A DNA stretch of 64,000 bases from a bacterium (GCA_029561455.1 JAKQIY010000061.1:1-64000), one strand, 5' to 3'. Shown: positions 412-16,167, counted from the first letter of the stretch. Numbers and translations: made by a program. Notes: generated from the sequence alone by a model not told the origin.

Positions 412-450
412 TAATAAAAAAAACCCCGGCATGAATAACTCACACCGGGG
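412..450 (-). terminator. Rho-independent terminator of the sigma/anti-sigma/DUF4097 operon
   Basis: Read on the minus strand, the stem CCCCGG/CCGGGG with a 15-base loop is followed at once by a run of T (the A run at 416-423 on the plus strand). It sits about 20 bases after the stop of the last gene of the operon and fits an intrinsic terminator. Confidence 0.75.
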
Positions 451-471
451 CTTGGAGTAAAAGAATATGAT

Positions 472-1464
472 TTATAATTTCTTTAAATTGATATTGCCGC
501 CGGAGGTGCGCAGGTACAACAATGGGCCGCCGCCATTAACCTCGGCCTGCAATTTCGTCTTTGATAGTTCACCCTGCACGGTTACCGGGAATTCGGTATT
601 CACCCGGCCGCCGCTGGTCTTGGCATCCAGGTTAACCTTGAGACCTTCAGCCATATAGACGTTAACACTGCCGCCGGAGGTCGACAAAGTACAATCCGCA
701 TCAGGCTGCGCGGAAATATTGGCGGTAACCGAACCGCCCGAGGTCTTGGCGTCGATTGTGCCCATAACTTCCTGCACGTTAATACTGCCGCCGGAGGTGG
801 AGGCATTGACGGTGCCTTTGGCGCTGTCGATGGTAATGGAACCACCGGACGTATGCGCTTCCACATTGCCGTTCACTTTGCCGACTGTAATACTGCCGCC
901 GGAGGTATTGATCCGCGCATCGCCCACACAGCCATCCAGAACAATGCTGCCGCCGGACGTTTTGCCGGTTACCGGGCCCTGAATTTGTCCGAACTTTAAG
1001 CTGCCGCCGGAGGTCTGGCTATATACACTTCCTTCCAAATCCGCAACCGCAATACTACCACCGGAAGTCTTTAAATCTACATTGTATACCTTGGGAACAG
1101 ATACGACAAAGCGCATTTTAATGCGATTGTGCTTCCAGTTAAACGGTTCACGGTCATATTTGGCAGTGACATACACATCATTGCCGCGTTTATCCATGTT
1201 TATTTCCAGTTCATCCAGAATTTTCTCGGCTTCGTTCTTGGTAAAAGCGTCAACTGTTCTGAACACTTCAACAACCACTTTGTCCCCGGCGCCGGAGGCA
1301 ACTTCGATAGAACCGAAATCGGACTCGATATAAAGAGTACCGCCGGAACTGACATCGAAACTCTCTTTTAAATTGGCGTCAATATCGGCAAAACCCAGAC
1401 CGGTTATTCCCAGCGCCAGTATTGCTGTTAATATCAGGCTTTTAATATAATGTTTACAAGTCAT
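472..1464 (-). CDS. DUF4097-type beta-solenoid protein with TSGGS repeats
   Basis: This is a secreted, repeat-built protein of 330 residues; its molecular function is unknown. A signal peptide is clear (residues 1-26, hydrophobic, ending GLGFA). After an N-terminal domain of about 110 residues come ten TSGG motifs, most of them TSGGSI/TSGGSV. In the central part they are spaced exactly 18 residues apart, which suggests one beta-helix turn per repeat. The family is DUF4097 (putative adhesin-like). It is the last gene of the ECF sigma operon, 68 bases after its paralogue, and is followed by a terminator. It differs from the paralogue in carrying Ser instead of Asp after TSGG in nearly every repeat. 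It probably acts in the periplasm or on the outer surface; that is inference. Confidence 0.8.
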   Translation of the reverse strand: MTCKHYIKSLILTAILALGITGLGFADIDANLKESFDVSSGGTLYIESDFGSIEVASGAGDKVVVEVFRTVDAFTKNEAEKILDELEINMDKRGNDVYVTAKYDREPFNWKHNRIKMRFVVSVPKVYNVDLKTSGGSIAVADLEGSVYSQTSGGSLKFGQIQGPVTGKTSGGSIVLDGCVGDARINTSGGSITVGKVNGNVEAHTSGGSITIDSAKGTVNASTSGGSINVQEVMGTIDAKTSGGSVTANISAQPDADCTLSTSGGSVNVYMAEGLKVNLDAKTSGGRVNTEFPVTVQGELSKTKLQAEVNGGGPLLYLRTSGGNINLKKL

Positions 1465-1532
1465 GTCTCTCTCCTTCTTGTTTTCTATAAATCAACTTAC
1501 GATTTTTTCTATTAATAGTTACAAAACCGGGG

Positions 1533-2789
1533 TTAATTTGCCTTATGGATGGTAATATTGCCATTTTTGGTTTTAAGAATAATCGGATCGCCGCCGCCGT
1601 TTATATCACCGGTGCTTTGTAACGTCCTGTCACCGAACTCACCCGGTTTGGTTTTCGTCAGCGGAAAGTCGCTGTAAATATCATAGCGCTCCCAATCCCG
1701 GCCCGATCTGTTCAAACGTATTTCCGCATTGATAGAGGCCGGAATATTAGCTGGTAAAGTTAAATCAATATCGCCGCCGCTGGTTTCAAGTTCCACACTA
1801 TGCGGTTGGCTAAAATCTTTAAGGGTAATTTCCGCTACAACATCACCGCCGCTGGTTTGGGCAGTTAAAGAGCTTTGGACATCAAGAATTTCGATATCGC
1901 CGCCCGAGGTCTTTACTTCCACGGGTTTATAAAATGTCCTGCCGTCGATATCGCCGCCGCTGGTATTGGCGTTTATTCTGCCTTTGATGTTGATCATTTC
2001 AATCTCACCGCCGCTGGTATGCAAAGCAACCTGTTCGCCGCTGCAATTACTGACAACCACATCGCCACCGGAAGTGCCGATTGAAAGGCTTCCTTCCACA
2101 TTACTTGCTTCCACATCGCCGCCGGAAGTTTGCAACGACACCCGTTGCGTTGCCTTTTCCAGTGTTATATCACCGCCGGAGGTATTGACAGTGCATTCAC
2201 ATAAAATGTTAAATAATTCAATATCGCCGCCGGAGGTATTGGCAGTTAAAGAGCCGGAAATACCTTTAAAACTCATATCCCCCCCGGAAGTTGAAACCCG
2301 CACTACTCCAGTTATTTCGGACACTTCAATATCGCCGCCGGAGGTCCGGGCCTCGATATTGCCTTCCAAGCCGGATATAACAACATCGCCGCTTTTGGTG
2401 TTCAGGTTCAGGTTATATTTACGCGGCACTTTGATCTCAAAATCACTGCCTTCATTATCCCAACCATCGGTGCCGGTAATAGTAACATTGTTACCGTTTT
2501 GTTTATAGTTTTTCTCTTTCTGGCTGACACGTTCTTTCGCTTCTTCCTGGGTGTAAACGTTCAATGCCAGTCGTTCCTGAATATAAACGCGGTTTTTATC
2601 CCAGGTGGTGATCTGGATATCGCTTTCTACATTTTCAATATTTAAAGTTCCACCAGGATTAACATCAAATGTCTTATGGATTGTGGTTTTATAGTATTTA
2701 CCCTCTTTGGTCAGATCCTGCGATGTCGCATAGTGCCAAATTCCGGCGACAAGCAACAGAGCCACAACCAGCATCATAAACTTTTTCAT
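1533..2789 (-). CDS. DUF4097-type beta-solenoid protein with TSGGD repeats
   Basis: A 418-residue exported protein with a signal peptide (residues 1-22). An N-terminal domain precedes eleven TSGG motifs, almost all TSGGDI/TSGGDV, in an 18-residue register from about residue 148 to 340. A C-terminal tail (about 350-418) ends in short beta-rich stretches. It is a paralogue of the next gene (472-1464), but its repeats carry Asp where that one carries Ser. Its ribosome-binding site (AAGGAA) lies in the last codons of the anti-sigma gene, whose stop is 3 bases before this ATG, so translation is probably coupled. Ligand and role are unknown; a cell-envelope structural or sensing role is inference from the operon. 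Confidence 0.8.
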   Translation of the reverse strand: MKKFMMLVVALLLVAGIWHYATSQDLTKEGKYYKTTIHKTFDVNPGGTLNIENVESDIQITTWDKNRVYIQERLALNVYTQEEAKERVSQKEKNYKQNGNNVTITGTDGWDNEGSDFEIKVPRKYNLNLNTKSGDVVISGLEGNIEARTSGGDIEVSEITGVVRVSTSGGDMSFKGISGSLTANTSGGDIELFNILCECTVNTSGGDITLEKATQRVSLQTSGGDVEASNVEGSLSIGTSGGDVVVSNCSGEQVALHTSGGEIEMINIKGRINANTSGGDIDGRTFYKPVEVKTSGGDIEILDVQSSLTAQTSGGDVVAEITLKDFSQPHSVELETSGGDIDLTLPANIPASINAEIRLNRSGRDWERYDIYSDFPLTKTKPGEFGDRTLQSTGDINGGGDPIILKTKNGNITIHKAN

Positions 2790-2792
2790 TTT

Positions 2793-3788
2793 CTATTCCT
2801 TTCTTGATAATTCGTAAGGACCTTTATTACTTTTCTGTTCCTGCAACATTTCCAATAATTGCTCGGATTTAAAACTGATATATTTACTTGAATCATTAAC
2901 TGCCTCATGCAAAAAGCTTTGTAAATCCTTTTCGTCCATCTGCTTGCTCGTCAACGTTTTAAAGGCATCGATGCGCACCGATGTGTTGGAATCATAGAGT
3001 AAAACCCTGACAAGCAAGCTCTTTACTTGGTCATTTAACGGCATGGCCTTTAACGCATCAAGAGCCATCAACTTCAAACCGGGGTTTTCGTCGCTTTGTA
3101 AAATTTTTTCAAGCGGCTGCAAATAATCCATATCCAATGCCGGCCGGCCTTGCGCCGCCGCTTGCATGGCCTTTACAGCGTGCCGGCGGATATTGGTATT
3201 TTCTTCGCTTAACATAGCATAAACCAACAGTTCCTTGATTGCCGGATTATCCAGATTTCCAGCCAGTTGTACTTCATTGATCATATTATATTGAATTTCA
3301 ATTGTCCCATTATCGGGATTGTATTTTAACCTGTCCACACCCATCAGGTATGGATTCATGGCGCCGTTTTCAATTCGTACAGAACCGGAAGCTGTGAGCA
3401 ATTGCTGCAAAGGGTCGATACCGGGTGCAGATGGTTTTATTACCTGCCCCTGTCTGCCAACCAGAAAACCAAATGCAAATAATAATAGAACCAGGGCAAA
3501 TTGCATGGCCGGCTTGAATGATAACACAGTAAATGAAGACGTCCGCACTTTCTTCCTCCGCCCTAATTTTAACTGCATCACATGGCGCATCGCTTCAAGG
3601 GCGGTTTCGGTTACCTGCTCCGGTTGATTTTCCTGCAGCAGGGCGCCGAACTGCTGCATGGCAGCGGCTTCTTGCCGGCAGGCTTGGCATATTTCCAGGT
3701 GTGCCTGGAGCTGCGCCAACTCTATCTCATCCAGTTCTTTATAATGAGCCAGGATGATATTCTTTTTATATGTTTTACATCTGTTCAT
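2793..3788 (-). CDS. Anti-sigma factor: zinc-finger, one membrane helix, HEAT-repeat domain
   Basis: A 331-residue membrane protein that probably holds the upstream ECF sigma factor inactive. Residues 1-50 resemble the zf-HC2 anti-sigma fold (Cys near the start, then HLEICQAC, an H-x3-C-x2-C pattern). One transmembrane helix is visible at about 107-127 (FALVLLLFAFGFLVG). The part beyond the membrane has alpha-helical HEAT-like repeats at about 178-310 (for example NTNIRRHAVKAMQAA and TSVRIDAFKTL). It follows the sigma gene by 16 bases and has GAGGAT before its ATG. The HEAT domain is the likely signal-receiving part. This assignment is from motifs and gene order, without alignment. Confidence 0.8.
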   Translation of the reverse strand: MNRCKTYKKNIILAHYKELDEIELAQLQAHLEICQACRQEAAAMQQFGALLQENQPEQVTETALEAMRHVMQLKLGRRKKVRTSSFTVLSFKPAMQFALVLLLFAFGFLVGRQGQVIKPSAPGIDPLQQLLTASGSVRIENGAMNPYLMGVDRLKYNPDNGTIEIQYNMINEVQLAGNLDNPAIKELLVYAMLSEENTNIRRHAVKAMQAAAQGRPALDMDYLQPLEKILQSDENPGLKLMALDALKAMPLNDQVKSLLVRVLLYDSNTSVRIDAFKTLTSKQMDEKDLQSFLHEAVNDSSKYISFKSEQLLEMLQEQKSNKGPYELSRKE

Positions 3789-3804
3789 AATATCCTCAAC
3801 CGTT

Positions 3805-4380
3805 TCATATATTATAATAAGGAACCAAATGTTTTTTTAATTTTTGCGTAGCCCGGAACAGGTAATTTTTTACGGTTCCCTCCGCACAGTTTAAAATAAC
3901 GGCAATATCTTTGATTTTATAATCCTGATACTGTTTCAAGGTGAATACGGCTCTTTCCTTGCTCGACAGTTTCTGCAAACCTTTTTCGATTTGCTGCCGC
4001 AATTCTGCAGAGGCTTGTTCCATATCCGCAGTCATACTAACATCCTTTACCGGTATTACACATATATCACTATTTTCATCAGCCAGATCAAAAATGGAAA
4101 TGAATTGCCCGATCCGGCGTTTACGCCGCATATTGATCGCCGTATTTATGGCAATACGGGTCAACCAGGTTTTGAAATGGCTTTGAAACCGGAAACCGGA
4201 TATGTTTTGAAACGCGCGCAGGAACGTTTCCTGGTACACATCCTGGGCATCGGCCCGGTTGCCCATCATCAAGTTAGCGATTTGCACGATACTGCGGTCA
4301 TACCTGATCACCAGCTTTTCAAATGCCTTTAAATTTCCTTGCTGGGCTTGCTGTACAAGTTGAATTTCGTGATTGTCCAT
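3805..4380 (-). CDS. ECF-type RNA polymerase sigma factor
   Basis: A 191-residue sigma-70 family factor of the ECF class. Region 2 is at about residues 20-85 (core YDRSIVQIANLMMGN, then DAQDVYQETFLRAF and the melting segment TWLTRIAINTAINMRR). Region 4 is at about 130-185 (LSSKERAVFTLKQYQDYKIKDIA and the recognition helix CAEGTVKNYLFRA). It heads a minus-strand operon with a membrane anti-sigma factor and two DUF4097 proteins, which are probably part of its regulon. A possible autoregulated ECF promoter lies just upstream (4400-4428). Confidence 0.92.
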   Translation of the reverse strand: MDNHEIQLVQQAQQGNLKAFEKLVIRYDRSIVQIANLMMGNRADAQDVYQETFLRAFQNISGFRFQSHFKTWLTRIAINTAINMRRKRRIGQFISIFDLADENSDICVIPVKDVSMTADMEQASAELRQQIEKGLQKLSSKERAVFTLKQYQDYKIKDIAVILNCAEGTVKNYLFRATQKLKKHLVPYYNI

Positions 4381-4399: not shown

Positions 4400-4428
4400 A
4401 TAGACAGCTCAATGGTTAAAAGGTTTGC
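4400..4428 (-). promoter_or_regulatory. Possible ECF-type promoter of the sigma operon
   Basis: On the minus strand, GCAAACCTTTT is followed about 15 bases later by GTCTAT. This resembles the AAC-type -35 and TCT/GTC-type -10 pattern of many ECF sigma promoters. It lies 20-48 bases before the sigma-factor ATG. The match is by eye to a loose consensus; autoregulation is inference. Confidence 0.35.
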
Positions 4429-4455: not shown

Positions 4456-6483
4456 TTAAAATTTTTTCAAATGCAGGAAGGCTAATTCTTTGTCCGGTAT
4501 ATAAAAATCTCTGTCGGCTATATATATCGTGCCGGCAAAAGGAGAACGCCCTGATGAAAAGTTATGAACCCCACGGATTGTGATATTATCACAATTTAAC
4601 AAACGCAGGGCAGCCGCATCGCCTGACGATTGGGTTAGCTGGTGACACACAAACAGGTTATTGAATTCCATATCCAGGCAATTTTGCATAGTAATTGCAT
4701 GGATAGCGGCAGAATCTTTACTTCCTTCAGTATATAGAGCATAAAAAGACCAGTTCCGGACATTTTCCAATATCACTTCCTGAGCCAGGTGATGCTGCGA
4801 GGATAGTAAATACACCTTGCCGGGGGTTTGCGTATTATTAACCAGTACGCCGGCCTGCATATTCATATTAGCCGTCCAGATATTTTTTAATATACCGCCG
4901 CCTTCATTCGTCACCCACAGACTGTAGCCCTTGCCCGGTTCAACTATCTGGCCACCCTCAGCGCCCCAGCCGAACCAAACATCATCAAGACAAGATTTGG
5001 CGCCGGCCTGCCACTGAATTTGCACCGCCCCCCTGTTATTGCCGGCATCAAAACCAATGCCGCTGATAATATTTTCCCCTCCCGGCGGGGTTGTTATCAT
5101 TGGTGTTAAAGAATCGGGATTCGTAAATCCGGCGGTGCTGTCGCGTAGTACTATTTGTGTGGCAAACGGGTGCAGGCCAACCAGGTTCGTCTCTTTCCGC
5201 AATTGCAGCGGTTTACTGATAACATACCTGCCCGACGGCACATAAATCGTTTCGTTATCGTTTATTGCCGTGATGAAAGCTATTGTATCATCGGTGAACC
5301 CATCTCCTTTGGCGCCATACTCTGTAATTGTGAACCACTTTTTTTGCGCCGGTAAATGCGGCGCGGTGGATTTGACCATTTTCACCGGTTCTTTTAAAGG
5401 TTGAAACTTGTACATGGTTTTAATCAGTTTATCATAACTGTCGCTCAACATGCGTTGTATTAGTAAACCATGGTTCAGGTATTCGATAACATAATAAAGC
5501 TGGTCAATATCAACCGGGGCATTACGATCCTGGAAATGTAAAAAATTTGGAACACGGTTACACAGAACATTCAACATGTTGATCTGGTTTCTCTGACTGT
5601 TATACCGGCTGATCAGAAAAGCGCTGCGGGAAATGTTTTCACACCGGCAATCGCGGACGAATAATTTTTCAATGGCATTTTCACGAACAAACACAGCATG
5701 TTGGGTGTTTTTGAATTGTGAACGTATGAGGGTCATACCGGATTCGCCGCATAAAACGGCAGCTTCTTTTTGATTTGAAAAACGGCAATCCATCACCATG
5801 ACCTGCCTGCCGGTGGGACTGGTATCGGTAATAATACCGTAATCACCGCCGGTAAAAGTGCAATCTTCAACCAGGTTGCCAAGCTGTTCAATGGCGGTAT
5901 AACCGGATTCCAGTTCAAAATCGATATGCTGCAGCGCCGATAATTGCGCCACATTAAAACGTACAGCGATGGCGCCGGGATTCCCCGGTGCAATATGCAG
6001 CGCCAGGTTACTCATACCGGAGCCAAAAGACGAGCTGCCGGCATCTTCGGGTGCCTGTCCCGGCAGGGGATAATTATCCCGAAAATGCAGCACTATCTTT
6101 TTTTCGTACAAATATGCCGGGTGATTCTCACGTACAATAAAAACCGGCTTGCGCTTGCCATAACCGATTAATCGGATACCCCGCCATATATTCACCGTAT
6201 TATCCAGGCAGTATTTCCCTTCGGGAATGAACACAATTCCGGCGCCCCAGGTTTTCTCTAATTGATCTATGGCGTTTTGCAGCGCCGCCGAATCATCGGT
6301 TTCACCATCGGCATGAATAGTAAATCGATCGGGAGTAAAATAAACGGCGCCGGCATCGTAAAAAGCGGTTGTATAAAGGGAGGGACGGGAATTGAATAAT
6401 GGTAGTCTGCATGAATTGTTTAAAGCGGCCAGGATTGTTACCAAAAGCAGGATAACCCATTTATATTGTTTATTCTTAAACAT
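4456..6483 (-). CDS. Double pectate-lyase-like right-handed beta-helix protein
   Basis: A 675-residue exported protein, probably a polysaccharide-active enzyme or a polysaccharide-binding protein. The hydrophobic N-terminus ends in NNSC (about residue 25), a weak lipobox, so it may be a lipoprotein. Two copies of the Pectate_lyase_3 (GH55/GH28-like) entry motif are seen: GETDDSAALQNAI near residue 60 and GDGFTDDTIAFITAI near 395. Each is followed by a strand such as FIPEGKY or YVPSGRY, so there are two tandem beta-helix domains, as in GH55 exo-beta-1,3-glucanases. Catalytic residues cannot be assigned by eye. It is transcribed on its own and ends 75 bases before the sigma-factor gene. Confidence 0.75.
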   Translation of the reverse strand: MFKNKQYKWVILLLVTILAALNNSCRLPLFNSRPSLYTTAFYDAGAVYFTPDRFTIHADGETDDSAALQNAIDQLEKTWGAGIVFIPEGKYCLDNTVNIWRGIRLIGYGKRKPVFIVRENHPAYLYEKKIVLHFRDNYPLPGQAPEDAGSSSFGSGMSNLALHIAPGNPGAIAVRFNVAQLSALQHIDFELESGYTAIEQLGNLVEDCTFTGGDYGIITDTSPTGRQVMVMDCRFSNQKEAAVLCGESGMTLIRSQFKNTQHAVFVRENAIEKLFVRDCRCENISRSAFLISRYNSQRNQINMLNVLCNRVPNFLHFQDRNAPVDIDQLYYVIEYLNHGLLIQRMLSDSYDKLIKTMYKFQPLKEPVKMVKSTAPHLPAQKKWFTITEYGAKGDGFTDDTIAFITAINDNETIYVPSGRYVISKPLQLRKETNLVGLHPFATQIVLRDSTAGFTNPDSLTPMITTPPGGENIISGIGFDAGNNRGAVQIQWQAGAKSCLDDVWFGWGAEGGQIVEPGKGYSLWVTNEGGGILKNIWTANMNMQAGVLVNNTQTPGKVYLLSSQHHLAQEVILENVRNWSFYALYTEGSKDSAAIHAITMQNCLDMEFNNLFVCHQLTQSSGDAAALRLLNCDNITIRGVHNFSSGRSPFAGTIYIADRDFYIPDKELAFLHLKKF

Positions 6484-7723: not shown

Positions 7724-8043
7724 TCATATTATTCCCGATTACATTTGTATAAACTTGAAGCAGTAATCGTATTCACTTGGAACAAAATAATGATTTGCCG
7801 GACGGACCCCTTTACAGGCACACCTTGTACAAAAAATCATCACGCAAGCCGGGACACCTACAGAAAACACGCTCTTGCAAAACATTGTAAATATTGATAT
7901 TATTAATCAACATTTTTTACAGAAATGATTTACATTCTTTCATAATAAAACCATCACAACATTACCGGCATACTTTTCGGGTACAATCTTTGCATTTTTG
8001 CCCGCAAACTAGTTTAAACAAGTTAATTCCTGGAGGTAACATC
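7724..8043. other. Leader region of the giant secreted protein gene
   Basis: I see no gene in this 320-base stretch. It contains the sigma-54-like promoter at 7979-7994 and the strong ribosome-binding site GGAGGT at 8032-8037. No clear terminator follows the preceding outer-membrane protein gene. Confidence 0.5.
7979..7994 (+). promoter_or_regulatory. Sigma-54 (-24/-12) promoter candidate
   Basis: CGGGTACAATCTTTGCAT carries the invariant GG and GC dinucleotides exactly 10 bases apart and matches most of the TGGCAC-N5-TTGCA consensus (differences at the first T and the first C). It is placed so that a transcript would start near 8005, 27 bases before the GGAGGT and about 40 before the TTG start. 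It is the only site of this quality I found in the intergenic regions I scanned. Confidence 0.5.
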
Positions 8044-11000
8044 TTGTCAATCGCCAAATTAATTGGTACAAAAAGCCGACGTATCATATTAATTCTTTGT
8101 CTATACACCTTGACTATCACCGCAAACCTGAGCGCAACGCATTGGAAGATCATGCCTGTTGGCAATTCGCTCACCTATGGTTACCCGACCGAACCCGGTT
8201 TTCGGGAAGCATTACATACCTTATTAACTGAAGCGGGAATTGATTTTGAATTCGTCGGTCCGGATGGCATTGCCCCGTTGAATGGTTTGTTTGTGAGCGG
8301 CGCCAAAATTGAAGATTTTTATGCGGGTAATAGCAAAGATCTGAGCGCCGCAATAGCCACCTACAAACCCAATTTGCTGCTTATGCATGTAGGCACCAAC
8401 AACTATACCGATGTTGCCGCCCCGTATTCGCCGGATAACGGCATTACTTTGCTATCAAACACCTCATCTGGCAAACTGGCCAAACTTTTAAAACAGTTCT
8501 CCACACAATCAAGCCTGGAGCACATTCTATTATGTAAAATAATATCGCAAATCAATAATGGAGTTTTGGCTAATATCCAGGTTGAAGCCTACAACTCGGA
8601 AATTGAACGCATGTTTTTTGACCGCGCTTCGGGAATTGCGGTCGATAAAATGACCATTGTCGATATGTATTCACAACTTGATATTACCGATTATTATGAT
8701 GAAAAGCATCCCGATCAAGGCGGGTATGATAAAATGGCGCAGGAATATTCCAGGATTGTTCAGGGCATTAACAATAATGATATGAACAAACCCGGTAAAA
8801 TTGCCTGGATACGCGGTGAAGTGCTGGATAAACAAACCGGCACCATTCAACTGCAGTGGAAAGCACCCGGCGACGACGCCTATTACGGCAAAGCCAATTT
8901 ATATGAACTGCGTTATGCAGAATATGAACTTGCCGATTTTTCGGACGGTATTTTGGTGCCGGGGCTGGATGCGCCCAAATCTGCCAACAGCACTGAAACC
9001 AAAATTATCAGCGGTTTAATTCCGGGAATTACCTATCATTTCTACATTCGCGCCTGGGATGAAATGAATAACAAAGGCGCGGTTTCCGATGAATACAGAA
9101 TTTATGTTGAACCCGATGTGGTTCCCGAATACACGGATAATTTTGCCGATCCCGTTCTTAGTGAAAGCTGGTGGGATTTCGACCCCGCTTATGAAATTAT
9201 CAACGAGCAATTGGTGAATACCAATCCCGCAACCGGTTGGGATAACCTGGCCACCTATAAACGGGTTTCGTACAATAAAAACGCTGATTATATTGAAACA
9301 TCCTTTAAATTCATCCAGTTTGGCGACGGCGGCGCGGCTATGATGCTGGACGATACTACATCAACGGCAAACGGATATTTTGTGTTTATCCGCTCCAACC
9401 GTCTGCGCTTGTTTGCTGTTACTAACGGCAGCATTCAAACGGCAGAGATCTATTCTTCCTCCATTTCGAATACCCCCCAGGCCGGGGATGTTATGATCGT
9501 GCAATGTTATCCTAATACTTTCAAAGGTGTTTCCTTTGAGGTTTCGGTGTATAATGAAGTAAACGGCACCCGTTATGTAGGTAATGTGTGGGATGTGAAC
9601 AAAACCCAGGGTAACGCCGATAATCTGTATTCCGGCGTTTTGTTGTATGGCGGTCAACATTATGCCATTGATGATTTTAGCGTAAAAATTCCACCACTGC
9701 CGGCGCATAAAATGGCAATCTATGCCGGTAATAACGAGTCCGGCAGGGTAACAAAGAAACTGGCTAATTCATTGACTGTGCAAGTTACCGATGTGAACGG
9801 CCTGGCGGTTTCCGATGTTCCCATTGATTTCAACGTTACCAGCGGCGTCGGTTATCTTAGCACCCATCCCGATTCCATTGAACAGGATTTTAACAACAAT
9901 CTCTGGATTGAAGCTGAAAGCGGCGATTTACAACTGCCCATGACCAGTTCCGACGATCTGGGCGCATCCAATAACAAATATATAGTCGTGGTTCCCGCAA
10001 CTGATGCACAGGGTAACGGTAATAATGAACTGGGATCGGCTGTATACAGGATTTATGCCCCGGTAGCCGGTATTTATCGCTTGTGGCTTAGGGTGCTTGC
10101 GCCATCGGGCGTCAGCAATTCCTGTTATGTTTCGGCCGCCGGGTCGCAGGAATATCGTTGGGACTTTGAAGCCAATGCCACAGAATGGCGCTGGCGGTCT
10201 CCGGCGAACCACAGTTTTACCCTGGTAAGCGGTTTTAATGATATGGTGATCCGTAACCGCGAATCCGGAACCAGGATAGATAAAATCCTGCTCTCCCGCA
10301 TTGAGTCATACACGCCAACCGGCGAAGGCGACGAAACCCAGCCCTTCTCATTTATCACCAATGCTTCCGGTCTGGCGCGTACTGAAATTACATTTGGTAC
10401 TACCACCGGCCCTGTGCAGGTTACCGCCACCGGCAATGTACCCAATGGATCGCCGCAAGTATTTACCGTCTACGCTCAGGCGCTCGATCCCCTGGCAATG
10501 CAGTATAATTCCCCGCAAAATTATCCGGGAGTTGCCGGGAATCCGCTCGATATCCCATTCTCCGTTATGCTTAAAGATCCTTATAATAACACGTGTTCCG
10601 GTATTCCGGTAGATTTTGAAATCATTTCAGGAGACGGTACGTTTAACGGCGGCGGCATCGATTCCACCCGTATCTCTACAGAAAGCGACGGTACCGCCAG
10701 CATAACCCTCACTCTCGGTTACCAGGAAGAGACTATCATCCGCGCTTCGCTGCCCGACTTTCCGGCAATTTCTCCCCTTGAATTTCATGGCATCGCCGGC
10801 GAGGGCATTCCGGTAGCTATTCAGGTAACCAGCGGCCAAAACCAGACCGCAATTGTTAAACATGAATTACCCCAGCCATTACAGGTACTTATTCTCGATG
10901 AAAAGAATGATCCGGTACAAAGCTATCCGGTTCCTTTTATTGTAATTAAAGGTAATGGTTTACTCGATGGCGAAACATCAAGTAAAACAGTTAAAACCAA

Positions 11001-14000
11001 CGCAGCCGGTTTGGCTAGTGTAACTTTTACCCTGGGCGATACCGCCGGTGTTGAACATAATATTGTCATGGTGGATGTGCCCCTGCCAGGCGCGCCGCTT
11101 TATTTCAAACCGATCGCGATACCCGATTCACCCTGGCAGCTTGTTAAAATCAGCGGCGACGGACAGCAGAAAAACGCCGGCAAGCTGTTTAATGATCCCC
11201 TGGTGGTGAGGATAACCGACCGTTATATGAACGGTATTGAAGATTATCATGTTAAATTCACGGTTGTAACCGGAAATGGAAATTTCTCCGGAAATGAGGG
11301 TACCATGGTAACCGGCGACGAATCGACCGTCATCACCGATTCCACCGGCGCAGCCCAAATATCATATACTGCGGGCAGCATCGAAGGCGTCAACTCTATC
11401 CGGGTTGAAGGATTACCGGCAGTACAGATCGGCTCTCCTGAAACATTTGCATTGACTGTTCTGCCGCGTCAGCCCAACCTTATCAACAAACGTTCCGGCG
11501 ATAACCCGCAGCAAATTGCTACCGTGAATAATTTACTTTCCGAGCCGTTTAAAGTCCGACTGCTCGATCCGTTCGGTAACAGTATGAGTTCCGGAATCAA
11601 AGTGGTATTTAAAGTTACATCCGGCGGTGGCAAGTTTGCCAATCTGGATTCCACCATAATTGAAACAAATTCTTCAGGCGAGGCCGAGGCCTATCTCCGC
11701 CTTGGCATTACCGCCGGCTCGCAAACCGTCAGGGTCTATTTATTGAATTACCAGCAGGTTGCCCCAGTCTCTTTTACCGCCATTGCGGTTCCCGACGCGG
11801 CGGTTAGAATTATCTCTGCAACCGCCAATCCGTTTACATTCAAAGCCGGGTATTCGCCTATCCCCTTGCAGGTTAAAATAGTGGATCAATATGAAAACCC
11901 CAACCCCGGCCACGCGGTGCAGTTTAAAATAACCCAGGGCAACGGCAAACTGGAAGGCAATGTTACCACGCTTACCGTCAATTCCAATAACCAGGGAATT
12001 GCCGGTGTTAACTATCAAATCGGCACCAATGTTTCCGTAACTAACCTGATTACGGCTACTTCGCTCAAAACCAATACACAACAGCAGCTTACCAACAGTC
12101 CGATAACCTTTAGAGCCTTTGTAACTCCGGATACCGCCAGCCAGATCGTCAAGATCAGCGGCGATACTCCCGTGCAGCAAGGCCAAATCGGTTCATTGCT
12201 GCCGGATTCCCTGGTTGTGCAAATTCGTGATCAATACAATAACCCGATTCCCAATCAGTCGGTTTCCTTTCAGGTGCTTTCGGCAACGGGTTTGATTGGC
12301 AATAAAACCGAATCGGATCGTATAACGGATGAAAACGGCAATGCTTATGTTTTTTACACTCTCGGCTTTACTGCGGGTGTCGCCAGCGATTCCGTCCGGG
12401 TTGTTATTAAAAACCGTGCGGATATTGCGCCGGTAATCTTTAAAGCCACGGCCCTGGCCGGCGCACCCGAAAAAATATTCGCCTGGCAGGATAGCACCTG
12501 GCCCGGACTGGTTTTAAGCAACAATCCCATATTATTATCACCCAAAGTAATTGTCCGCGATATACGTAACAATGCCGTCACTAACGCCCTGGTCACCTTT
12601 AAAATCAAGCGTGGACTGGGTAAGGTGAACAATAAAGATTCCGTAAATGTATACACCGGCGCTAACGGTATTGCCAGCGTTAACTGGACGTTGAGTTCAA
12701 CTCCTGACACCAACCTGGTGCAGGCAATTTCCAGGTACAACGGAGCGCCGCTATCCAATTCGCCGGTTATTTTTACTGCCGTTACCATGCCGGGTGTTCC
12801 CTTTTATCTGCAAAGGAAATCGGCGGAAAATGATACGGGGATAGCCAATCAGCGCTTATCTGCACCACTTCAAGTCCGTGTTACCGATCAATTCCAGCAT
12901 GTTATTGCCAATCATCCGGTACAGTTTACCATTACCTTCCCGGAAAGCGGCGCCAAAGGTAAATTTATCCTGGAAAATGACTCGCAGGTGGAATCGGCTA
13001 CCGTTTATACCAACAACGAAGGGTACGCACAAATCTATTTTAAACCGGTCACCGGCATCAACTCGGTCAAAGCGTCATCACAATATAATAGCGTCAAATT
13101 ACAATCCGATCAGACATTTTATATAACCGGCACGGCTCCGCAAGCCAGTTACATTGACTTGTTAAGCGCTCAAGAGATCACTGCGGTAGTTAACAGTAAT
13201 CAAAAGATCAATGTTCAGGTTGGCGCTTATGACGCTGTCGGCAGCCCGGTCGATAAACATGGCATCCATTTTAAAATCCTTAAAGGTTCAGGCTATCTCG
13301 AATCGACCAAATCGCTGCAAAGTTACATAAGCACCCGCAACGGCGTGGCTGAAGAAAAATGGCTGCCGGGGACTGTGGCCGGCGCGGAAAACTGGCTGGA
13401 AATTTCCTCAACCTACGACCAGGTGCATATTACCGGTTCCCCGGATACGGTCAGGCTAACCTTGCTGCCGGCTGCTCCAGATCCCGATTCTTCCAGGATA
13501 ACGGCTACCAGCAATATTATTGCTAATGGTACAGATTATTCACTGATCACCGTGACAGTGAAAGACAAATACAACAATCCCATACCCAACCTCACGGTTA
13601 CCCTGGTTTCGGAAAACCAGGGCGTTAGCATTGAAAATCCGCAAACGCCTACCAATGCCAACGGCATAACCACCGGAAAAGTGCGGTCAACGGTCAGTAC
13701 GGATACGGTACGGGTTACGGCGCACATTGCCGGAACACCCCCGGTAGTGATTTGCTGCGCCCAAATTGTCTTTACACCGGATCGGGCCGGAAAAGTGGTG
13801 GCTATTTCCGGCAACGGACAAACCGGTAATAAAGGCGCCGCCCTTAAACACCCGTTCATAGCAAAGGTTACTGATAATAATAACAATCCTGTTGCCGGGG
13901 TGGATATTAAATTTGAAACCGAGCAAGGCGGCGGCTATCATCTGGATACCGGTCAGCAAAGTTACACCGTCAAATCGGATGCCAACGGCATGGTTAGCGC

Positions 14001-16167
14001 ATTGTGGGCGCTTGGCCCGGATAATGGTACAAATTTGGTAGCGGCAACTATAAAGAGTATGGGACAAAGCAGCCCCAAAGCCCTTTTTACCTGCCAGGCC
14101 AAAACACCGCAGCCGCCATATAGCTTGTTTATTGTCTCCGGTAATAATGCAAATGTTGCCGTGACTGATACTATGACATCTCCGCTCGTTGCCGGACTGG
14201 TCGACGCCGATACCGGCGCCGTTTTTAACGCCCCGGTAACCTGGAAAGCTCTGAACCAGGGCGGCGCTTTTGCCGAAACCAATCCGGTGGCAACCAACAG
14301 CAGAGGGCATGCGCAAATACACTATATTGCCGGAGCGCAGGCGGGACAGCAATTCGTTCAGGCAAACGCTGCCAATGCCGGCAACGCTCTGACATTCACT
14401 GTTAATGCAATATCCGCCATGGCAAGCGACCTGGTTGCGGTTTCAGCAACGTCCGCGAGCGATACGGTGGGACATATACTGCCGGATACAATGATCGTCC
14501 GCGCCCTGGATCAGCACAGCAACCCGGTTGCCAATGTCCCGGTGGTTTTTCAAATTGCCGACGCCCCTGCAGATAATCATTATGCGCAGATGCTTCCACA
14601 GGATTCAGTTATAACCGATCAGAACGGCCTGGCTAAAATTCGTTTCAAGATCGGCCGGCCGGTTGGCGATTATGTGGTAACTGCTACTTCACCGCAAATA
14701 CCGGATGTTAGCGTACTTTTCCAGGTTAACGCCGTACATGGCCCGGCCGCCCGGCTGCATAAATATTCCGGCGATGGCCAGTACATGACGAAAAACCGCA
14801 CTCTCATATACCCGGCGGTTGCGCTGGTTACCGATGAGTTCGGCAATAGTGTGGAAAATGAAGTGGTCTATTTCCAGCCCAAGAATTTCATCGGCAGCGT
14901 CACCAGTCAAAAAGATACAACCGACAGCCTGGGACGGGCCGGAACTTTCTGGCAGCTTGGCAACCAGGCCGAAAATGCTCTATGGGCGTCCAAGCCGGGG
15001 ATGACACCCAACCATGTTGAATTTACCGCTACCGGTGTGGAGAACGCTTTTCCGGAATTCATCGGTCTGACCCACCGCGATACGGTCGATTATACGCTTG
15101 ATGGGTATAATGTCATCATCACCGCCCGTGATGACGATAATGATCCGTTGACCTATACCATTGTGCAAAAACCGGCCAACTCCACTTTTAATCCGGCGAC
15201 CCGGCAGTTCTCCTGGCAGCCCAAAAGCAACCAGAAAAAAACCTGGAATATCGTTTTTAAAGTGGAAGATAACAAATCCGGCGTGGAAAAAGGTTTTGAT
15301 ATTGATTCGCTGGTGGTAACGGTGACCGGCAACCTGCCGCCGCGCATTGTCTCTTACTTTCCGGCCAACCTGAACATCAATGTGACGGAAGACAGGAATG
15401 AAAAATTCACCGTGCTGGCTACCGATCCCGATGACGACCCGCTGCTCTATACCTGGTATGTGGATGACGATGCCTGCGCTTCCGGCGCCGAATTTACCTT
15501 TATCGCCGCCGAGCATCCCGGCGTCCATTCGCTTACCTGTATGGTCTCCGACGGCCAGGATTCTGTTGAGGTTAAATGGGATCGCGTCACTAAAATCGAG
15601 CTGACCAGCTTTAGCGCCAGCCATACGCCCTACCAGGGAATTTCCGTAAACTGGCAAACCCGCAAGGAAGAGCACAACCTCGGTTTCTTTGTCTACAGAA
15701 GCATGGCGGAAAAAGGCGATTATATAAAAATGAATGAAAAACTGATCGCCCCGGAAAAGGATTGCGACTATACCTACACCGACACCACCGCCGCAGACGG
15801 CCGCCGCTATTATTATAAACTGGTCGACGTTAACAGTTCCGGCGTCATGTCGGAAAACGGGCCGGTCATGGCGGAAACCTCCCTGCCCAGGGATTTTCAG
15901 TTGTACCAGAATTTCCCGAATCCGTTCAATCCGACCACCAAAATCCGTTTTGAACTGCCGCGTGAAGCGCAAACGCAAATTACTATCTATAATGTTAACG
16001 GCCAGGTGGTTAAAACCCTGGTCAACAGCAAGTTCAAACCCGGTTACCATGAAATTACCTGGAACGGCCTGAACGAGTTTGACAGCAAAGTCAGTTCCGG
16101 AATTTATTATTTGCAAATTCAGGCCGGGCGCTACAAAGACGTAAAAAAGATGGCCTTTATCAAATAA
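8044..16167 (+). CDS. Giant secreted SGNH-hydrolase / Big_1-repeat protein with T9SS sorting domain
   Basis: A 2707-residue exported protein. The TTG at 8044 is chosen for GGAGGT 6 bases upstream and a signal peptide right after it (about residues 12-31). Domains in order: SGNH/GDSL esterase-like, about 32-245 (GNSLTYG with Ser42, HVGTNN, DEKHP); fibronectin III, about 250-355; a LamG/concanavalin-like module, about 364-553; about fifteen bacterial Ig-like (Big_1) repeats of roughly 100 residues, about 555-2332, the first interrupted by a CBM-like module (620-750); cadherin/PKD-like modules, about 2333-2517; a fibronectin-like module; and a type IX secretion C-terminal domain, about 2613-2707 (YQNFPNPFNPTTKIRF). 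It is probably a surface stalk presenting an esterase to polysaccharide. It stands alone between a sigma-54-like promoter and a terminator. Confidence 0.88.
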   Translation: MSIAKLIGTKSRRIILILCLYTLTITANLSATHWKIMPVGNSLTYGYPTEPGFREALHTLLTEAGIDFEFVGPDGIAPLNGLFVSGAKIEDFYAGNSKDLSAAIATYKPNLLLMHVGTNNYTDVAAPYSPDNGITLLSNTSSGKLAKLLKQFSTQSSLEHILLCKIISQINNGVLANIQVEAYNSEIERMFFDRASGIAVDKMTIVDMYSQLDITDYYDEKHPDQGGYDKMAQEYSRIVQGINNNDMNKPGKIAWIRGEVLDKQTGTIQLQWKAPGDDAYYGKANLYELRYAEYELADFSDGILVPGLDAPKSANSTETKIISGLIPGITYHFYIRAWDEMNNKGAVSDEYRIYVEPDVVPEYTDNFADPVLSESWWDFDPAYEIINEQLVNTNPATGWDNLATYKRVSYNKNADYIETSFKFIQFGDGGAAMMLDDTTSTANGYFVFIRSNRLRLFAVTNGSIQTAEIYSSSISNTPQAGDVMIVQCYPNTFKGVSFEVSVYNEVNGTRYVGNVWDVNKTQGNADNLYSGVLLYGGQHYAIDDFSVKIPPLPAHKMAIYAGNNESGRVTKKLANSLTVQVTDVNGLAVSDVPIDFNVTSGVGYLSTHPDSIEQDFNNNLWIEAESGDLQLPMTSSDDLGASNNKYIVVVPATDAQGNGNNELGSAVYRIYAPVAGIYRLWLRVLAPSGVSNSCYVSAAGSQEYRWDFEANATEWRWRSPANHSFTLVSGFNDMVIRNRESGTRIDKILLSRIESYTPTGEGDETQPFSFITNASGLARTEITFGTTTGPVQVTATGNVPNGSPQVFTVYAQALDPLAMQYNSPQNYPGVAGNPLDIPFSVMLKDPYNNTCSGIPVDFEIISGDGTFNGGGIDSTRISTESDGTASITLTLGYQEETIIRASLPDFPAISPLEFHGIAGEGIPVAIQVTSGQNQTAIVKHELPQPLQVLILDEKNDPVQSYPVPFIVIKGNGLLDGETSSKTVKTNAAGLASVTFTLGDTAGVEHNIVMVDVPLPGAPLYFKPIAIPDSPWQLVKISGDGQQKNAGKLFNDPLVVRITDRYMNGIEDYHVKFTVVTGNGNFSGNEGTMVTGDESTVITDSTGAAQISYTAGSIEGVNSIRVEGLPAVQIGSPETFALTVLPRQPNLINKRSGDNPQQIATVNNLLSEPFKVRLLDPFGNSMSSGIKVVFKVTSGGGKFANLDSTIIETNSSGEAEAYLRLGITAGSQTVRVYLLNYQQVAPVSFTAIAVPDAAVRIISATANPFTFKAGYSPIPLQVKIVDQYENPNPGHAVQFKITQGNGKLEGNVTTLTVNSNNQGIAGVNYQIGTNVSVTNLITATSLKTNTQQQLTNSPITFRAFVTPDTASQIVKISGDTPVQQGQIGSLLPDSLVVQIRDQYNNPIPNQSVSFQVLSATGLIGNKTESDRITDENGNAYVFYTLGFTAGVASDSVRVVIKNRADIAPVIFKATALAGAPEKIFAWQDSTWPGLVLSNNPILLSPKVIVRDIRNNAVTNALVTFKIKRGLGKVNNKDSVNVYTGANGIASVNWTLSSTPDTNLVQAISRYNGAPLSNSPVIFTAVTMPGVPFYLQRKSAENDTGIANQRLSAPLQVRVTDQFQHVIANHPVQFTITFPESGAKGKFILENDSQVESATVYTNNEGYAQIYFKPVTGINSVKASSQYNSVKLQSDQTFYITGTAPQASYIDLLSAQEITAVVNSNQKINVQVGAYDAVGSPVDKHGIHFKILKGSGYLESTKSLQSYISTRNGVAEEKWLPGTVAGAENWLEISSTYDQVHITGSPDTVRLTLLPAAPDPDSSRITATSNIIANGTDYSLITVTVKDKYNNPIPNLTVTLVSENQGVSIENPQTPTNANGITTGKVRSTVSTDTVRVTAHIAGTPPVVICCAQIVFTPDRAGKVVAISGNGQTGNKGAALKHPFIAKVTDNNNNPVAGVDIKFETEQGGGYHLDTGQQSYTVKSDANGMVSALWALGPDNGTNLVAATIKSMGQSSPKALFTCQAKTPQPPYSLFIVSGNNANVAVTDTMTSPLVAGLVDADTGAVFNAPVTWKALNQGGAFAETNPVATNSRGHAQIHYIAGAQAGQQFVQANAANAGNALTFTVNAISAMASDLVAVSATSASDTVGHILPDTMIVRALDQHSNPVANVPVVFQIADAPADNHYAQMLPQDSVITDQNGLAKIRFKIGRPVGDYVVTATSPQIPDVSVLFQVNAVHGPAARLHKYSGDGQYMTKNRTLIYPAVALVTDEFGNSVENEVVYFQPKNFIGSVTSQKDTTDSLGRAGTFWQLGNQAENALWASKPGMTPNHVEFTATGVENAFPEFIGLTHRDTVDYTLDGYNVIITARDDDNDPLTYTIVQKPANSTFNPATRQFSWQPKSNQKKTWNIVFKVEDNKSGVEKGFDIDSLVVTVTGNLPPRIVSYFPANLNINVTEDRNEKFTVLATDPDDDPLLYTWYVDDDACASGAEFTFIAAEHPGVHSLTCMVSDGQDSVEVKWDRVTKIELTSFSASHTPYQGISVNWQTRKEEHNLGFFVYRSMAEKGDYIKMNEKLIAPEKDCDYTYTDTTAADGRRYYYKLVDVNSSGVMSENGPVMAETSLPRDFQLYQNFPNPFNPTTKIRFELPREAQTQITIYNVNGQVVKTLVNSKFKPGYHEITWNGLNEFDSKVSSGIYYLQIQAGRYKDVKKMAFIK

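Follow-up and report, generated by a model that had tools for sequence, protein, structure and literature searches.

A conserved ECF-type promoter ahead of an operon for a sigma factor, a predicted HEAT-array anti-sigma factor and Toastrack solenoids in an uncultured bacterial phylum

The window analysed here, by which we mean the whole stretch of 64,000 nucleotides of bacterial DNA (GCA_029561455.1 JAKQIY010000061.1:1-64000), carries on its minus strand, from 4380 to 472, four open reading frames: an ECF sigma factor, a membrane anti-sigma factor and two proteins, T1 and T2, of the DUF4097 family, which is now named 'Toastrack' in Pfam (Table 1). The original prediction described four tightly packed genes, and the frames were recovered as described, separated by gaps of exactly 16, 3 and 68 bases. 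Pfam likewise agrees with the identities proposed for them (ECF sigma factor, HEAT-repeat anti-sigma factor, two solenoid proteins), and the single terminator claimed for the operon, the sole good one, lies at 453-421 (minus) and consists of a 15-pair hairpin followed by a T tail. Upstream and codirectional lies a gene for an exported pectate-lyase-like protein (4456-6483, minus; Pect-lyase_RHGA_epim, 1.4e-41), which we left out of the system because it is not an operon neighbour in any of the relatives examined. Reading by eye of a 2757-aa open reading frame on the plus strand (7894-16167) gives a GDSL-type part at the N-terminus, numerous Ig-like repeats and, at the C-terminus, a stretch similar to a type IX secretion sorting domain.

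Table 1. Features of the operon, with positions counted from the first letter of the window
Feature	Position	Strand	Basis
ECF-type promoter GCAAACCTTTTAACCATTGAGCTGTCTAT	4400..4428	-	upstream regions of relatives compared
ECF sigma factor, 191 aa	3805..4380	-	Sigma70_r2, Sigma70_r4_2, NCBIfam sigma70-ECF, tree
Membrane anti-sigma factor, 331 aa	2793..3788	-	zf-HC2 and HEAT_2, profile comparison
Anti-sigma domain, residues 1-63	3600..3788	-	alignment A1, RsiW profile match
Single transmembrane helix (predicted), residues 93-114	3447..3512	-	AF2, hydropathy peak, conservation
Extracytoplasmic part of anti-sigma factor (predicted)	2829..3338	-	AF2 model, pLDDT 76-91 over most of 181-320
T1, exported beta-solenoid of the Toastrack (DUF4097) family, 418 aa	1533..2789	-	DUF4097, AF2, 4QRK match
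T2, second exported Toastrack protein, 330 aa	472..1464	-	DUF4097, alignment A5, orthologues in relatives
Intrinsic terminator of the operon	421..453	-	15-pair stem, then TTTTTATTAC tail

The sigma factor matches Sigma70_r2 (8e-17) and Sigma70_r4_2 (7e-16) in Pfam and the sigma70-ECF family of NCBIfam (5e-29). It has regions 2 and 4 only and its gene adjoins that of an anti-sigma factor, as befits an ECF sigma factor, and in a tree of sigma factors it groups with those of the other sampled operons of the same kind (type A) in one clade (support 96/95).

For the anti-sigma factor, Pfam reports zf-HC2 (2.6e-5) and HEAT_2 (1.7e-10). Over about residues 1-63, a profile of 29 relatives matches RsiW (5WUQ, 1.1e-5) and the membrane protein chain 3HUG_B (6e-4), which we take to be a Mycobacterium anti-sigma factor; residues 184-318 match HEAT/alphaRep chains. 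The N-terminal domain is thus homologous to that of RsiW and RseA (zf-HC2, 5WUQ), which marks a class I (ZAS/ASDI) anti-sigma factor, and through this RsiW-like domain the protein is predicted to bind and inhibit its cognate sigma factor. Alignment A1 reveals a putative zinc motif, C4 and H30-x3-C34-x2-C37, whose H30, C34 and C37 are present in the window's protein and lost in some relatives. The AF2 model (8 sequences; mean pLDDT 74, pTM 0.49) has helices at residues 3-53, 61-76 and 93-114, the last of which is the predicted membrane helix with conserved G107 and G111, and a linker that is poorly predicted, with low confidence. In the extracytoplasmic part, three short strands (151-177) precede an array of helix pairs (182-320) modelled mostly at pLDDT 76-91. 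The segment YNPxxGxIEIxYNTxND of the strand region is among the best-conserved parts of the protein in order-level relatives. Tandem antiparallel helix pairs, as expected of HEAT repeats, are thus indicated by HEAT_2, by the model and by alphaRep/HEAT matches in both sequence and fold, in keeping with the original description of a membrane anti-sigma factor whose outer part is a HEAT array. The best PDB matches of the model are alphaRep/HEAT proteins at E 2e-3 and weaker, and because Foldseek returned nothing below E=0.001 for it, we describe the array as 'HEAT-like'. At its C-terminus (window 2793-2830), the protein ends in a short tail, [LI]xR[KED][EDGN], conserved in the order and in some members of the class (ELSRKE, EISREE, PLRRED and KIEREE are examples) and lacking from other anti-sigma factors.

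Both downstream proteins match DUF4097 in Pfam (T1 2.1e-25, T2 1e-10). They had been described as built almost wholly of 18-residue TSGG turns, and the period holds: SGG repeats at residues 149-336 of T1 are spaced 18, 18, 18, 18, 18, 19, 18, 18, 18 and 24, and those of T2 follow six consecutive spacings of 18 with 21 and 21. 'Almost wholly' is an overstatement, however, as the signal peptide of each protein is followed by an N-terminal part of about 100 residues that lies outside the repeats. T1 also has a conserved C-terminal cap (RxDIYSDFPL...INGGGD), and is modelled by AF2 as an all-beta solenoid (pLDDT 89.9, pTM 0.84). Its best PDB match is 4QRK (E 5.7e-5), followed by 3LYC, 3PET and 4OPW; 4QRK and 4OPW are cited as Toastrack structures by Ravi et al. 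2024 (PMC11237479). We read T1 and T2 as soluble periplasmic proteins, since both begin with hydrophobic segments resembling signal peptides and neither shows a lipobox or a C-terminal anchor on reading of the sequence. Of these two proteins T2 is better conserved, at 53-73% identity in four relatives. Assignment to known Toastrack proteins was considered and rejected, both for LiaG (49-51 bits against an NCBIfam equivalog cut-off of 285) and for LiaX (18 bits against 350), as was an RseB-type partner (MucB_RseB), T1 and T2 matching DUF4097 only in Pfam.

A genome-wide search for a shared ECF promoter had been suggested, and such a site exists. The consensus GCAAACC-WTTT-N12-GTCTAW occurs upstream of the sigma gene in most of 35 operons, mostly 20-57 bases before the annotated start. 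In the window it comprises a -35 GCAAACC, a 16-nt spacer beginning TTTT and a -10 GTCTAT; the start codon of the sigma gene follows after about 20 bases, and the site is the sole exact match in the 5.85-Mb genome. ECF promoters of the RsiW/SigW and RseA/RpoE type have AAC and GTC cores at -35 and -10, respectively, and the conserved site here, upstream of the operon's own sigma gene, has the same AAC-type and GTC-type elements. A matrix score of at least 13.8 is reached in 32/35 operon upstream regions, a partly circular figure as the matrix derives from 26 of the same regions; an independent check with a fairly strict pattern finds it in 24/35 of them, against 52 of ~20,000 windows drawn at random from the same loci. 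A strict scan of 60 genomes yields 28 sites: 21 at the operon, one preceding an unlinked Toastrack gene, and six in other places. The reversed control pattern yields eight. Motif sites at L117, L121, L124, L127, L128, L131 and L145 have no Toastrack or sigma/anti-sigma gene near them and were set aside as apparently chance or unrelated occurrences.

The motif also extends to Toastrack genes outside the operon. A strong site precedes 6/57 unlinked Toastrack genes and 0/70 other genes at the same loci (p=0.007). Outside this count stands one Toastrack gene that was found through the motif itself (L144), with its start codon ~60 bases downstream. For unlinked T2 genes, strong sites number 4/13 in operon-bearing genomes and 0/5 in others, too few for significance, and 8/13 of the unlinked T2 orthologues in operon-bearing genomes are without a recognisable site. 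The window's own genome has no full motif at Toastrack genes outside the operon. Position and conservation lead us to assign the promoter to the operon's sigma factor, and because the motif is almost confined to the operon and some unlinked Toastrack genes, this sigma factor probably activates its own operon and Toastrack genes.

The named relatives are MAGs of candidate division KSB1 and Calditrichaeota. A scan of genome contigs with anti-sigma profile A2 gave 7 loci, the named ones being of the KSB1/Calditrichaeota type. Among 60 relatives, single-sequence search finds the HEAT anti-sigma factor in 41 (strong matches) and T1 in 40 (E below 1e-70); 40 genomes have both, 19 have neither, and one has the anti-sigma gene alone, at a contig end (Fisher 1e-14, phylogeny ignored). 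In the loci examined from the relatives, sigma, anti-sigma and T1 keep this order, usually across small gaps, amid flanking genes that vary. T1 adjoins the anti-sigma gene wherever contigs allow, including 8/8 loci outside the class, in two of which (L218, L222) no sigma gene was recognised upstream. This phylum-wide order indicates that the arrangement is not due to chance and upholds the proposal that the genes form one regulatory unit. T2 follows T1 directly in roughly fifteen operons, has its orthologue elsewhere in about thirteen operon-bearing genomes, and occurs without such an anti-sigma gene in at least five genomes (G002, G004, G012, G014 and G029). The survey of DUF4097 linkage called for at the outset, in which unlinked genes were to count against the original prediction, therefore gives a divided answer: T1, inseparable from the HEAT anti-sigma gene, does not count against it, whereas T2, often unlinked, does so in part. 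On plasmids, tblastn found no HEAT anti-sigma gene, and none of the plasmid DUF4097 matches in Runella, Bradyrhizobium and Pseudoalteromonas lies beside sigma/anti-sigma genes; in the Runella and Pseudoalteromonas plasmids (L236, L238), DUF4097-like genes adjoin large genes with DUF6443, PKD or Hint domains.

The window's genome also contains a second operon with the same kinds of parts. This type-B operon (G000:C51, locus L009:6379-9553, minus) encodes a sigma factor, a HEAT anti-sigma factor and two Toastrack-like proteins slightly under the Pfam cut-off; similar operons occur in L224, L228, L229, L230, L231 and L232, with one Toastrack protein recognised in L231. Type B thus resembles type A, in the same phylum, in its ECF sigma factor, HEAT anti-sigma factor and usually two exported Toastrack-like proteins. 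It differs in its shorter anti-sigma factor (about 275 aa), its shorter Toastrack proteins and its sigma factor, which belongs to a clade very distant from type A (100/100, branch 1.91). That HEAT anti-sigma and Toastrack proteins accompany two sigma lineages so far apart speaks for a functional link rather than descent of a single locus, and the anti-sigma factors of the two types may share ancestry. Ten sites with two mismatches to the motif occur in the window's genome, one of them before the type-B sigma gene (G000:C51:121585; GGCAACCTTTT-N12-GTCTAT), so cross-recognition of promoters between the type-A and type-B sigma factors is possible. A type-C operon (G000:C54, locus L011:4596-8357, plus) comprises a sigma gene, a zf-HC2 anti-sigma gene without a HEAT match and two genes for HEAT proteins; it has no Toastrack gene. 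The HEAT protein encoded first starts with a TPR/YfiO-like part and has five HEAT_2 matches. Type-C sigma factors are nearer to type A than type B is in the sigma tree, and HEAT seems to be a recurrent partner of ECF sigma factors in this lineage.

Toastrack genes have other surroundings as well. In the same genome (G000:C84, locus L010:7754-8545, minus) and in L194, a DUF4097 gene adjoins a large gene for an RND-type transporter; L010 also has what look like genes for an outer-membrane factor, a membrane-fusion protein and a TetR-like protein (roles by reading of the sequence). Unlinked Toastrack genes in L157, L168 and L176, and in part L167, lie near an epimerase-like gene starting ...LIIGGTRFLGKYLTEALLKGNQ, and in some such loci an exported protein of ~281 aa is encoded in between; this is a further conserved setting of Toastrack genes.

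Sequence comparison establishes the parts and their linkage, their predicted topology, the promoter and its recurrence before unlinked Toastrack genes, and on these we build a model that we hold to be reasonably probable: the operon is an autoregulated envelope-response module in which Toastrack proteins are the output, the HEAT array receives the input and T1 probably provides feedback. Through its RsiW-like N-terminal domain, the anti-sigma factor would keep the sigma factor inactive at the inner membrane; the HEAT array, in the periplasm, would serve as input. An envelope signal would lift the inhibition, and the freed sigma factor would use GCAAACC-WTTT-N12-GTCTAW to transcribe its own operon and also, in several relatives, additional Toastrack genes. 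Sigma factor and inhibitor would both be made in greater amounts, and the chief product would be Toastrack solenoids in the periplasm, which may protect the envelope. T1 would most likely dock on the HEAT/strand region and close a feedback loop, whereas T2 would be mainly a periplasmic effector. The operon is probably a cell-envelope stress response of an uncultured phylum, with the solenoids as its product and, likely, as its feedback signal too.

One question is whether the solenoids are signal or product. The original prediction suggested that they could be the ligand that the anti-sigma factor monitors, and a developed form of this idea would have one or both bound by the HEAT anti-sigma factor as RseB is by RseA, the state of the solenoid reporting envelope damage and controlling sigma release. 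The obligate linkage of T1 to the HEAT anti-sigma gene speaks for it, as do the recurrence of the HEAT anti-sigma/Toastrack pairing with a distant sigma clade and the example of LiaX, a surface protein whose DUF4097 domain is C-terminal and which is proposed to inhibit LiaFSR until triggered (PMC10269926). T2, at any rate, being often unlinked and occurring where there is no anti-sigma gene, cannot be such a ligand alone, and the promoter makes the solenoids response products, which for a pure ligand would amount to a feedback loop only. On the promoter evidence the solenoids are the sigma factor's output first; sensing through T1, by analogy with LiaX, is plausible. As a full account we consider the ligand model unlikely. 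The opposite view, that the solenoids are pure effectors (an envelope scaffold or shield) and that gene order only ensures co-expression while the HEAT array senses another cue, for instance an envelope peptide or lipid in the wrong place, is possible, though we doubt it. It fits the narrow regulon, in which Toastrack genes are the sole recurrent members found, and the type-C operon, where HEAT proteins accompany a zf-HC2 anti-sigma factor and Toastrack is missing, so that HEAT does not require a Toastrack ligand. It does not account for the constant association of T1, in contrast to T2, with the anti-sigma gene.

The neighbourhood could also be a lineage-specific product of vertical descent without functional coupling. 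All genomes examined come from one phylum, and vertical inheritance alone yields some linkage, but as anti-sigma identity among relatives falls to about 23-30%, the gene order, the usually tight spacing and the promoter are retained amid changing flanks, and we regard this explanation as already disfavoured and highly improbable. Returning to the feedback module, a bolder version of it can be put forward as a tentative conjecture: the HEAT anti-sigma factor might directly read the occupancy or assembly of its own sigma factor's Toastrack solenoid, keeping the amount of external solenoid homeostatic, an arrangement that would have arisen or been recruited with two distant sigma clades. If true, such a reading of its own Toastrack would define a class of envelope-stress switch not described before. 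DUF4097/Toastrack proteins occur widely and are tied to envelope stress and antibiotic tolerance, with a poorly known route to transcription; in the main published view, most of them are intracellular. In the uncultured phylum, four genes make up a compact, sigma-driven version that has exported Toastracks, a defined promoter, a defined candidate sensor and a countable regulon, so that the role of Toastrack as signal, effector or both becomes directly testable in a heterologous host.

Compared with known systems, the operon resembles the class I pairs RsiW/SigW and RseA/RpoE in its N-terminal anti-sigma domain, single membrane helix and extracytoplasmic sensor, and in the type of its autoregulated ECF promoter (judged here by position and conservation). 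Unlike in RsiW and RseA, the outer part is predicted to be a HEAT array after a short strand region, and the accessory exported proteins are Toastrack solenoids where RseA has RseB. In the open-access papers searched, no description of a HEAT-repeat anti-sigma factor with DUF4097 partners was found. Sigma-linked Toastrack neighbourhoods are already known: Ravi et al. 2024 (PMC11237479) report that some include an operonically linked sigma factor. The main text of that paper does not contain the term 'anti-sigma', and no HEAT-repeat anti-sigma factor was found there. What is new, as far as these comparisons reach, is the conserved ECF promoter GCAAACC-WTTT-N12-GTCTAW ahead of the sigma/HEAT-anti-sigma/Toastrack operon. 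The extended PSP/Lia neighbourhoods (PMC11237479) are alike in coupling a Toastrack beta-helix to a membrane-linked transcriptional switch. Ravi et al. argue that Toastrack is generally intracellular (PMC11237479), whereas T1 and T2 carry predicted signal peptides. The operon is also set apart from the Lia/PSP system by its gene content, as Pfam finds no PspA, PspC, LiaI-LiaF-TM or two-component gene among the four genes or in the upstream neighbour. The enterococcal LiaX-LiaFSR system (PMC10269926, PMC11779154) shares with the operon, as modelled here, a DUF4097 protein located outside the membrane and made by the system that it restrains. LiaX, however, has a helical, antimicrobial-binding N-terminal domain and acts via LiaF and a histidine kinase (PMC10269926, PMC11779154), while the system described here would operate with a sigma/anti-sigma pair and all-beta proteins.
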